From assembly GCA_948442255.1 (NCBI GenBank), contig CAOJRT010000009.1, positions 1-50,282 on the forward strand: DNA of 50,282 nucleotides, in the 5' to 3' direction. Position numbers and translations under genes: made by a program. The DNA comes from an uncultured Caryophanales bacterium (GTDB taxonomy: Bacteria; Bacillota_I; Bacilli_A; RF39; UBA660). Every line of letters starts with the position of its first letter. The stretch's first letter is position 1. Below the pieces are notes generated by a model, which made no database searches, had not been told where the DNA came from, and saw only the letters and a list, made by a program, of their open reading frames with translations. Below, piece after piece: positions 38,825 to 42,712 of this stretch.

Positions 38825-39370
38825 CTCGCGGCAGAGCCACGAGGTATCTGTGTATGCCCTATTCAAAGAGTTTTAACTGTCCTTGATATAATTTAGTATA
38901 CTCCTTGCCTTGATTACGAACGTAATTTTTGATTTGATTTTCATTGTTATTTTTTCCTACTGTACTAACAAAATATCCTGCGCTCCAAATGTTGCCTCCC
39001 CACAATTTCTTTTTCACCATTGGGCATAATCTATATATTTCTTTTGCTGTTATACTTTTTATAATTCTAGCAACTTCTGTGGGAGCCAACATTGGTACTG
39101 TTTGTATCAAAAAGTGAACATGATCATCATCTGTTCCAATCTCCATTATATTTATATCATATCGCTTGGATATTTCTTTACATGTCTGGATCAATATCTT
39201 ATCTACCGAATCATCAAAAATTACTCTTCTATATTTTGCTAGGCATACATAGTGGTACAATAGTATAGATACATTATGTGCTTTATGAATATATTCACTC
39301 ATATTTCTTCTCTCCTTATATCTATTATTGTACCACACTTTTCTCCGAGGCAGAGCCTCGGGGAATTTAC
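38825..39370 (-). mobile_element. IS200-type insertion sequence
   Basis: A 546-base element with one Y1 transposase gene and imperfect subterminal hairpins instead of inverted ends: ACCTCG(C)GGC-AGA-GCC(A)CGAGGT at 38823-38845 and TTCTCCGAGGC-AGA-GCCTCGGGGAA at 39341-39365. IS200/IS605 elements move as single-strand circles and leave no target duplication; here TAC appears at both joints, compatible with a TAC-ending target. No TnpB gene is present. It lies inside the two-helix membrane-protein gene. Confidence 0.85.
38859..39302 (-). CDS. tnpA: IS200-family Y1 transposase
   Basis: A 147-residue HUH single-strand transposase. The HUH motif is HVHFLIQ (His61, His63) and the catalytic Tyr is Tyr127 in IKNYVRNQG. 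The length (about 150) and WGGNIWSAGYFVSTVG are typical of IS200. A 12-codon longer frame exists, but ATG 39302 has AGGAGAG eight bases upstream. All residues needed look intact, so the element may be active. It is transcribed opposite to the host gene. Confidence 0.95.
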   Translation of the reverse strand: MSEYIHKAHNVSILLYHYVCLAKYRRVIFDDSVDKILIQTCKEISKRYDINIMEIGTDDDHVHFLIQTVPMLAPTEVARIIKSITAKEIYRLCPMVKKKLWGGNIWSAGYFVSTVGKNNNENQIKNYVRNQGKEYTKLYQGQLKLFE

Positions 39371-39740: not shown

Positions 39741-40277
39741 TTATGCATTATTTGGGATTTCAATTGCTTTTACAATATAGCCTTTCTGTTTCCCTGATTT
39801 TAATATATTAAAAGTAAGAGTAATTACAGTGTAATCTTCCTTACTAAGAAGTTCATTCTTACTTGTTGGTATATCTATATTATTCCCAGTTATTTTTATA
39901 TTCACTTTATAAGCATAGTAGTAATCTATAATTTGTCTTTCATATATAGTATCTAAAACTTCATAGGTATTCCAAGTTCTAATCATATTATATGTAATTA
40001 CTTCATCTTTTATGACTCTATCGGCTATTTCATCTAAATATTTTTTTACAATGCTATTTTTATCTGCGTTTTTTAGTTCTAATGGTTCTTCTATGTCTTG
40101 ATTTTCTAATACACTATCTGTTGGTATAGAGGGGGAATCTATTTCGTCTTTAGGTACTTCTTTAAAATCAATTTCTCCCGCATTACTATTGTCAATTATA
40201 CTTATTATGACACAGATAAATGCTAATATTAAGGATATATATATAACTAAATCATATCTTTTACTTCTTTTTTTCAT
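39741..40277 (-). CDS. Membrane-anchored exported protein, unknown
   Basis: About 178 residues with a basic start (MKKRSKRYD), one transmembrane helix (about 10-28), and an acidic extracytoplasmic part (Asp/Glu/Pro-rich to about residue 75), then a small folded domain with alternating strands (YYAYKVNIKITGNNIDI; YTVITLTFNILKSG). No family recognised. The start is not clear: AAAGGA directly abuts the ATG at 40289 and is 12 bases from the one at 40277. The IS110 element begins about 30 bases upstream, so its native promoter has probably been displaced. Confidence 0.6.
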   Translation of the reverse strand: MKKRSKRYDLVIYISLILAFICVIISIIDNSNAGEIDFKEVPKDEIDSPSIPTDSVLENQDIEEPLELKNADKNSIVKKYLDEIADRVIKDEVITYNMIRTWNTYEVLDTIYERQIIDYYYAYKVNIKITGNNIDIPTSKNELLSKEDYTVITLTFNILKSGKQKGYIVKAIEIPNNA

Positions 40278-40330
40278 TTTAAGCTTCATTCCTTTCACTT
40301 CGTTCAAGGCACACATAGGAATTAAAAACC

Positions 40331-40358
40331 TTGAACTAAATTTATTTTTCTATATAAT
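40331..40358 (+). promoter_or_regulatory. Promoter of the IS110 leader RNA
   Basis: TTGAAC (40331-40336), a 16-base spacer and TATAAT (40353-40358). The predicted start (about 40365) coincides with the first base of the closing stem of the candidate RNA. Confidence 0.6.
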
Positions 40359-40364
40359 ATCAAC

Positions 40365-40561
40365 CTTGAAAGAGTGTGTACTACAAAGCACGGTAGGAGG
40401 AGTTGCAGACTTCCTGTAACTCTTAGGATTAAATCAGTATTTTAAGCAGTGCAAATGCAGTTATTTCAAGCACACATAAGTAGTTCTTTTAAGGCTGTAG
40501 GTTAATTATTGACTTTAGTTAATTCTTAGTGTTAACTACATAGACAACTCACTCTTTCAAT
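40365..40561 (+). ncRNA. Candidate IS110 bridge RNA
   Basis: A roughly 195-base noncoding stretch closed by a perfect 11-base stem, TTGAAAGAGTG (40366-40376) with CACTCTTTCAA (40550-40560). Inside are a 9-bp hairpin GAGTTGCAG/CTGTAACTC (40400-40422) and a GTAGTT/AACTAC stem (40480-40539). GCACACATA at 40470-40478 matches exactly the 9 bases of host sequence on the left of the element (40309-40317), as a left target guide should. Size, place and promoter agree with IS110 bridge RNAs, which pair with target and donor DNA to direct the recombinase. Confidence 0.6.
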
Positions 40562-40590
40562 AATTTCATTTTGAAAGGAAAGATTTATTT

Positions 40591-41877
40591 ATGGAAGTTA
40601 TTTAACCTAAAGCATGTGGTGTTGATGTGCACAAAACATTTATTGTTGCTGTCATTTGTGACTCAACTTCCATCACACCTAAATACTCACGAAAACGTTT
40701 TTCTACCTTTAATAATGATTTAATACGTTTTAGAAATTGGCTACTTGAAAACGATTGTCAAAATGTATGCATGGAATCTACTGGAAAGTATTATATTCCT
40801 GTATACAATGCATTAGAAAATCATATTTCTAATGTCGTCGTTGCTAATCCTATATGGGTTAAATGCATTAATGGTGAGAAAGACGATAACAAGGATGCAA
40901 AATGGATTGCAGACTTGTTTAAGTTAGGTATTGTTCGTAGTTCTTTTATTCCAATAAAAGCTTTTCGTATCTTACGTGAATTTACTAGATATCGTTACAA
41001 ACTTACCTGTAATAGAACTTCTGAGAAAAATAGATTTACTAACGCTCTTACTGTTGGTAATTGTAAAGTTGATATGGTTTTCTCTGATATTTTTGGAAAA
41101 TCATCACAATCTATCATTGATATTATTTTAAACAATGATTCTTTCTCAGATGAGGATATTATAGGTTGTTTACGTAAAAATTGCAAATCTTCTCATGAAG
41201 ATATACTTTCCTCTGTTAATGGAATTCAATTTACTACTGAACAAAAACTAAGAATTAAAATTGTCAATGAACATATTGATTATCTCAATAATCAAATCGA
41301 TAAATTAAATGAAATAATTGATATCTTAGTTGAACCTTATGAAGACTATATATCTTTACTTTGTACTATTCCAGGTGTTGATAGAAATTCTGCTATTACT
41401 ATTCTCTCTGAAATTGGTACTGATATGTCTCAATTCTCTTCTCATTATAGACTTACTTCTTGGGCTGGGCTTGCTCCTGGTTGTAATGAATCTGCTGGCA
41501 AAAAGAAATCTGTTAAAATTTCTCGTGCTGGTGTTTATCTTAAACCTTGCCTTGTTGAAGTTGCCCACTCTGCTGTTAAAGATAAATCTAACACCTATTA
41601 TGTTAAGAAATTTGAGAAGCTTTGTAAACGTCGCGGTAAAAAGCGTTCAACTGTTGCGATTGCTAGAAAAATTTTAGTCGCTATTTATCATATGTTTTCT
41701 ACTGGTGAAGTTTGGAATCCAGTTGATCTATCAACTATTGAAACACCTATTGAAGACAAAATTAAATATACCAAAAATAATTTCAATCAATCTCTTAAAC
41801 AATTATTTTCCTTAGGTCTTACATCTGAAGAACTTATAAATTTAGTTAATCAAAATACCAATAATTTATCCACTTAA
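40591..41877 (+). pseudogene. IS110-family DEDD transposase, nonsense at codon 5
   Basis: The reading from ATG 40591 (GAAAGG upstream) is MEVI, then TAA (40603-40605), then PKACGVDVHKTFIVAV, which is the family's N terminus; the stop probably replaced Tyr. The catalytic Asp of GVDVHK lies after the stop and before the first possible restart (GTG 40627), so a restarted 416-residue product would lack it. The rest is intact: CMESTGKYY (Glu), KDDNKDAKWIAD (Asp pair), the transposase_20 domain LLCTIPGVDRNSAITILSEIG, and SWAGLAPGCNESAGK with the C-terminal Ser. This copy is therefore likely dead as a source of recombinase. Confidence 0.85.
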
Positions 41878-41971
41878 ATTTTGACTTTAACTTGGGGTAA
41901 GGGGAAGTCTGCCCTTTTTTAGATAATTTTCTAAAATAAATTTATTTCTTTTTTTCAGGTTACTTTTCTCC

Positions 41972-42712
41972 TTATTCCTTTTTTTCTACTGAGTCTATAT
42001 TTATACTTGGTTTTATTATATTGTTTGTGTAGTCTCTTTTTAAGGGGATTTGTTCTTCTTTTCTTTCAGGAAAACCTTCTTGTAAATTTAAATTGGTTTG
42101 CGTATGTAATAGTTCTTCTTTATCCTGTAATGTTTCTATAGATTGATTTTGCGTTATATTATTTGTTTGATTAAATATAACATAGTTTGGATTTAATTTT
42201 ACTATTTTAGTTAAATATTGCATTAGAAAAGAAGATGCTTTTTCATTATAAAGTAATGCTTCTTTATTATAAGCTATTCTAGCTAATTTTACGCCATTAT
42301 CTAAAGAGTTTATATCTTCTTCAGTAAATGTACCAATATACTCTAATTCGCTTAATTTTGGGTACTTTTCTAAGTCTAATTGTTTACTTAATTTATATTT
42401 ATTTAAAGCGTTACTTGTTTCTACTTTTTCATTTATGGAACCAGTTTCTCCCTTTTGTAATATAATGAGTAGTCTAGCTAGTTCTGTTTTTATTGTATCT
42501 TCCTCATTGTATTCTATTAAAAGCATTTCTACTATTTGTTTTGCTTCTTGCACTTTTTTCATTAAGTAAGCATCTAATGTTTCGCTAAATTGCTTATGTA
42601 TATTATTTATTCTATCTTTTAAATACTTATACTCTTTTATAATATAAATAATAATAAGTATTATAATAATCCATATTATATTGTTAAAAATAAATTCCAT
42701 TATATTGTACAT
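41972..42712 (-). CDS. LemA-like membrane protein
   Basis: A 246-residue protein with an N-terminal transmembrane helix (about 8-26), an alpha-helical region, and the LemA-like block YPKLSELEYIGTFTEEDINS...LARIAYNKEALLYNEKASSF (residues 124-170), where LemA proteins have YP-x-L and the YN-x(n)-YN helix. The C-terminal 70 residues are Asn/Gln/Glu-rich and unlike LemA. Function of LemA proteins is unknown. AGGTGA lies before the ATG. It is 34 bases downstream of the pseudouridine synthase gene, same strand. Confidence 0.65.
   Translation of the reverse strand: MYNIMEFIFNNIIWIIIILIIIYIIKEYKYLKDRINNIHKQFSETLDAYLMKKVQEAKQIVEMLLIEYNEEDTIKTELARLLIILQKGETGSINEKVETSNALNKYKLSKQLDLEKYPKLSELEYIGTFTEEDINSLDNGVKLARIAYNKEALLYNEKASSFLMQYLTKIVKLNPNYVIFNQTNNITQNQSIETLQDKEELLHTQTNLNLQEGFPERKEEQIPLKRDYTNNIIKPSINIDSVEKKE

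Follow-up and report, generated by a model that had tools for sequence, protein, structure and literature searches.

Among described insertion sequences, those closest to the locus analyzed here, an IS110-family element on contig CAOJRT010000009.1 of an uncultured Caryophanales bacterium, are IS900, IS621, and the IS1111 elements. IS900 of Mycobacterium avium subsp. paratuberculosis, itself of the IS110 family, targets translation initiation signals with the motif CATGNNNNNNTCTCCTT (PMC8141618); in the part of that source describing the motif, where Doran et al. 1997 is cited, the start codon stands on one side and the reverse Shine–Dalgarno (SD) sequence on the other. The choice of site by IS900 is explained there by expression of the hed open reading frame (ORF) (PMC8141618). 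IS621 (PMC11208160, PMC11208158) combines a DEDD recombinase with a left-end bridge RNA, whose target and donor loops contain guides covarying with both target and donor, and in the IS621-like group the match to the bottom strand (left) lies 5′ of the match to the top strand (right). In IS1111 elements, which carry subterminal inverted repeats of 7–17 bp, the seekRNA lies downstream of the transposase gene and its top-strand match precedes the bottom-strand match (PMC11187229).

The window, that is the whole contig of 50,282 nucleotides (nt), belongs to a gut-type Bacilli metagenome-assembled genome of 1.6 Mb. Its IS110 element (40282–41962; features lie on the forward strand unless stated otherwise) is ~1.68 kb long, and we put at roughly 90% the probability that a bridge RNA from its left end directs landing between the SD and the start codon of host genes. 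As with IS900, SD and start codon stand on opposite sides of the element, which has a single orientation relative to them, but IS900 is mycobacterial, whereas this element resides in Bacillota and brings its own outward SD. Because start-site targeting by IS900 has long been described, the site preference is not new. The guide RNA explanation of start-site targeting appears to be new; no guide RNA basis for IS900 targeting was found in the searched literature, which was thin in subscription papers and preprints. By eye, no hed-like frame is open into our element from its right end, all frames there being closed.

Results

The ends of the element were placed with more than 60 relatives. Those sharing 83–92% DNA identity remain similar as far as about 40282 (left) and 41962 (right), and the flanks diverge only past both points; the ends are exact to ~1–2 nt, with an A common to both joints, and are also supported by a paralogue across the joint of one relative (L010). 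The right terminus, CAGGTTA (41956–41962), emerges from the alignment of relatives with unrelated flanks. A reading made earlier from the window's letters alone (the sequence-only reading) had misplaced the left end, which the alignment puts at 40282.

On its left, the element abuts CAT (40275–40277), which serves as start codon to a divergent host gene (39741–40277, minus strand; 178 amino acids, MKKRSKRYDL...), and on its right the reverse complement of AAGGAG (41968–41973, minus strand), the original SD of that gene, now 1.7 kb from the start codon. The rejoined flanks give AATAAGGAGAAAAGTAAAATG, the SD side of which reads AATAAGGAGAAAAGTAAA-ATG. About 10 congeners without the element have an orthologue of the host gene with the same start and with its own SD and ATG together, and keep the gene order of LemA-like gene, host gene, and tRNA.

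The same arrangement recurs among the relatives, the host genes of which are unrelated. CAT occupies a fixed left-flank position in 39 of the 41 relatives having a left flank, an ORF of at least 60 amino acids begins at that ATG in 34 of these 39 (17% at control CATNNNA sites), and 23 of 26 rejoined sites have an SD match of at least 5 nt, in comparison with 6.9% of 1975 control sites. The genes entered encode GAPDH, lactate dehydrogenase (LDH), YbaB, KdpD, DeoC, a response regulator, a ClpB/C-type ATPase, and LysR and CsoR regulators, among others, and the Pfam domains of the host genes often begin at residues 1–7 (GAPDH, LDH, His_Phos, KdpD, DeoC, response regulator, YbaB, and Cons_hypoth95). 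The insertions keep to a single base position measured from the start codon, and their orientation does not vary. In one genome (G367), a paralogue of the host gene is uninterrupted across the joint and reads CACACTATCACC, compared with the inferred CATACTATCACC; a search of the congeners of another (G377) for an uninterrupted site gave no match across the joint. As a separate observation made by eye, in the right flank of L013 the element separates a Clp ATPase gene from a CIRCE-like upstream inverted repeat, TTAGCACTT...GAGTGCTAA.

The left end contains a structured RNA that covaries strongly, as judged from an alignment of 31 relatives, and this covariation, together with Pfam and NCBIfam models, bears out the earlier proposal of an IS110 element with a left-end bridge RNA. 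The proposed promoter, TTGAAC-16-TATAAT, is present at 40331–40358, with TATAAT kept in relatives, and the RNA is predicted from covariation to extend from 40368 to 40558 (~190 nt), upstream of the transposase gene starting at 40591; the right end of the element comprises ~85 nt. Folding the RNA against related left ends, a check suggested by the sequence-only reading, supported five helices, in which 97.7% of cells are paired and 17 of the 35 pairs change on both sides, with 98 such cells against 27.7 in shuffles; no version of the alignment slid out of register approaches the observed covariation. The closing stem, also foreseen, is formed by GAAAGAGTG/CACTCTTTC and shows compensatory changes in 7 of 9 pairs. 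Within it are two loops, each closed by a GCAC/GTG(C/T) stem: the target-binding loop (40388–40452) by GCAC (40388–40391) and GTGC (40449–40452), changed to GCAT/ATGC in one relative (L052), and the donor-binding loop (40469–40533) by AGCAC (40469–40473) and GTGTT (40529–40533). A hairpin is predicted between the two target guides (40400–40422). An Rfam scan of the region gave no match to a bridge RNA family. The 10-base inverted match noted earlier, GCAGACTTCC at 40405–40414 with 41903–41912, exists, but the proposed pairing between RNA and right end through it is not conserved: Close relatives alone retain the match, and diverged ones lose it without compensation. What is conserved is a different donor guide (40498–40504).

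The guides within the loops follow the sites. The 3′ target guide, TATTTTAAGC (40438–40447), corresponds to the left junction CATTTTAAGC (40275–40284). It consists of the start codon, three variable bases, and AA, and would pair with the bottom strand; its CATNNNAA repeats the start codon plus the three bases preceding the start codon, and a U of the guide that stands for a host C could still form a U:G pair. In 102 of 108 cases, the variable bases (three after CAT) match the copy's own site, the permuted mean being 55 and the maximum 76 (0 of 10000). Similarly, the donor guide TAGGTTA (40498–40504), located 3′ of the donor-loop hairpin, corresponds to the right end CAGGTTA with a U:G at the first base, and the guide TAG[AG][CT]TA agrees with CAG[AG][CT]TA of the right end at 56 of 58 variable bases, the permutations averaging 40 with a maximum of 50. 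The 5′ target guide (40392–40402) is Shine–Dalgarno-like and hypervariable, with an entropy of 0.86 bit in comparison with 0.19 for the rest of the RNA, and its SD-like variants among copies include GGTAGGAGGAG, the form of the window, GGTGAGGTGAG, GGGGAGGAGAG, and others. Each of the four GGTGA-type sites goes with a copy whose guide has GGTG, although this association is not significant.

In multicopy cases, one guide goes with several gene starts (L026/L027; L184/L185/L187 of Enterococcus faecalis). Two copies, L028 and L049, have CAG in place of CAT in the guide and CAGGATA as the site, off start codons, in what is apparently a natural reprogramming of guide and target. The L028 copy lies upstream of a GatC-like reading frame.

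Close to the left terminus is a putative outward ribosome-binding site (RBS), GAAAGGAATG (40287–40296, minus strand), with 12 nt from its AAAGGA to the host ATG. An outward GAAAGGA block is found in all but few relatives, its distance to the host ATG being 12 nt at 31 loci and 13 nt at 10 loci. As this spacing is set by the guide, insertion would bring the RBS into place each time. The block probably keeps the host gene translated. A consensus scan within 300 nt of the left end found no outward promoter, and transcription may thus either run across the element from the old promoter or start within the element. The conserved block could instead be a left-end contact site of the recombinase or the RNA, with no role as an RBS: It lies ~15 nt or less from the terminus, in the zone of donor recognition, and the right donor guide was not found. 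We consider this possible but doubtful, given that 29 of 31 bridge RNAs lack any 6-mer able to pair with the block and that its sequence and spacing resemble those of the transposase's own RBS, AAAGGA at 9–12 nt. As a further candidate, we considered an N-terminal fusion, MCALNEVKGM, onto host proteins, but it is in frame and stop-free in only 25 of 39 loci; because the remaining loci have stops or a shifted frame, such a fusion is not a conserved function.

The start-site plan extends to a subfamily at 44–48% identity, to which a second element of this genome (C34) belongs, and the design is shared at 41–59% protein identity by elements in independent records, located on finished plasmids of Roseburia sp. 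831b, E. faecalis, Enterococcus raffinosus, and Lactococcus lactis. In E. raffinosus, the annotated coding sequence start of an SDR gene is exactly the CAT. The second element of this genome, L001 (G000:C34:12040-13206; 44% identity), has start-codon/SD flanks and a matching guide, CATAAATA. The E. faecalis conjugative plasmid LR962562.1 carries five near-identical copies (L182, L184, L185, L187, and L189), with CAT on the left in five of five and a reverse SD on the right in four of five. By eye, the plan was not seen in IS110 elements of 32–37% identity from an M. avium plasmid (L192) and Peribacillus (L193), and a search of phage records found no relatives of the element.

The transposase gene (40591–41877) encodes a protein of the IS110 family of DEDD transposases, as indicated by profile matches to the N-terminal RuvC-like DEDD domain (PF01548, 1e-22), the C-terminal Transposase_20 domain (PF02371, 8.8e-17), and NF033542 (5.4e-62, above cut-off). 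Its codon 5 is TAA (40603–40605), upstream of the first catalytic Asp, and reads TAT in all aligned relatives. Because there is no in-frame start codon from this stop up to the first catalytic Asp, the window copy is probably inactive, barring stop read-through or an assembly error. A terminator-like hairpin (41899–41916) follows the gene. Elsewhere in the window, a frame at 38859–39338 (minus strand) resembles IS200/IS605 TnpA and is flanked by two frames with a common AEPRGI-coding stretch.

Discussion

We propose that the left end yields a bridge RNA whose target loop reads the translation start. The 3′ guide, of the form CAT-NNN-AA, would pair with the start codon together with the bases immediately preceding it, the SD-like 5′ guide may pair with the Shine–Dalgarno, and the donor loop would pair with the circular element at its right terminus. 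The recombinase would then join target and donor, so that landing would always occur between SD and ATG, with the inserted transposase gene directed away from the host gene and the left-end GAAAGGA arriving 12–13 nt from the host ATG as a replacement RBS.

Several points weigh against this proposal. The case as a whole is built on sequence comparison. The match of the 5′ guide to its own SD is slightly above shuffled (P ∼ 0.02–0.06), and because this copy-by-copy agreement is so slight, the reading of the SD may be loose. Neither the exact core nor, as said, a right donor guide was located; the permutation statistics do not remove kinship among elements; and two copies, L182 of E. faecalis and L186 of Roseburia, are without an SD on the right.

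Placement between SD and start codon could also reflect selection, if other insertions were lost and those upstream of genes survived. Purifying selection against gene disruption is general, and an outward RBS would render such insertions mild. Selection alone would nevertheless not yield an RNA guide that holds CAT and follows the next three bases site by site, and the single exact base, the single orientation, and the joint change of guide and site to CAGGATA in L028 and L049 make this explanation very improbable. Just as improbable is recognition of SD and start codon by the recombinase protein, with an RNA that only resembles both: The weak match of the 5′ guide to its SD would fit, but the three bases beside the start codon vary by site and each copy's own RNA matches them, whereas the protein is conserved.

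The sequence-only reading, an IS621-type bridge RNA with GCACACATA as a left target guide equal to host flank at 40309–40317, is practically refuted: The nine-base identity between 40470–40478 and 40309–40317 is real, but both copies lie inside the element and are conserved in relatives with unrelated flanks, left-end variants of the block (L030, L080, and L082) are not mirrored in the RNA, and neither the empty-site-like paralogue nor the rejoined flanks contain GCACACATA next to the joint, an outcome that the reading itself had named as refuting. Because flanks diverge only outside 40282 and 41962, the left copy is subterminal, 28–36 nt inside the element, and no host sequence; relatives with unrelated flanks carry an identical AAGGCACACATAG block there. 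Most of the copy in the RNA belongs to the strand that closes the donor loop (AGCAC pairing with GTGTT), the remainder being the unpaired bases after it, and the left guide is the one at 40438–40447. The identity itself is kept in most close relatives, without covariation.

With the bridge RNA directing start-site landing as the preferred explanation, the locus can be set beside the known groups. It shares with IS621 the DEDD recombinase, the left-end RNA, and the target and donor loops with guide covariation, which here is seen for the left target guide and one donor guide and is marginal for the right target guide, although similarity to the IS621 protein is weak (phmmer 1.6e-7) and the order of the target guides is reversed, the left guide being on the 3′ side of the loop and the SD (right) guide on the 5′ side. 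This order is that of the IS1111 seekRNAs, but the RNA is upstream of the transposase gene, as in IS110. The system is bridge-RNA-like, yet fails one defining trait each of the IS621-like and IS1111 groups.

We think it somewhat likelier than the contrary that this Bacillota IS110 clade uses its bridge RNA as a portable detector of translation starts, with both guides hypervariable and their order swapped relative to IS621, and with an outward RBS spaced so that the genes entered would not be silenced; the same logic would explain IS900. The finding offers an RNA-guide explanation for IS110 elements landing on translation starts, in the form of a natural bridge RNA that would be aimed at a signal common to nearly all genes and for which there are apparent natural examples of reprogramming. 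The combination of an IS110-type RNA location with an IS1111-type guide order bears on the kinship of the two groups, and the outward RBS suggests how the element may enter even the gene for GAPDH and stay tolerated.
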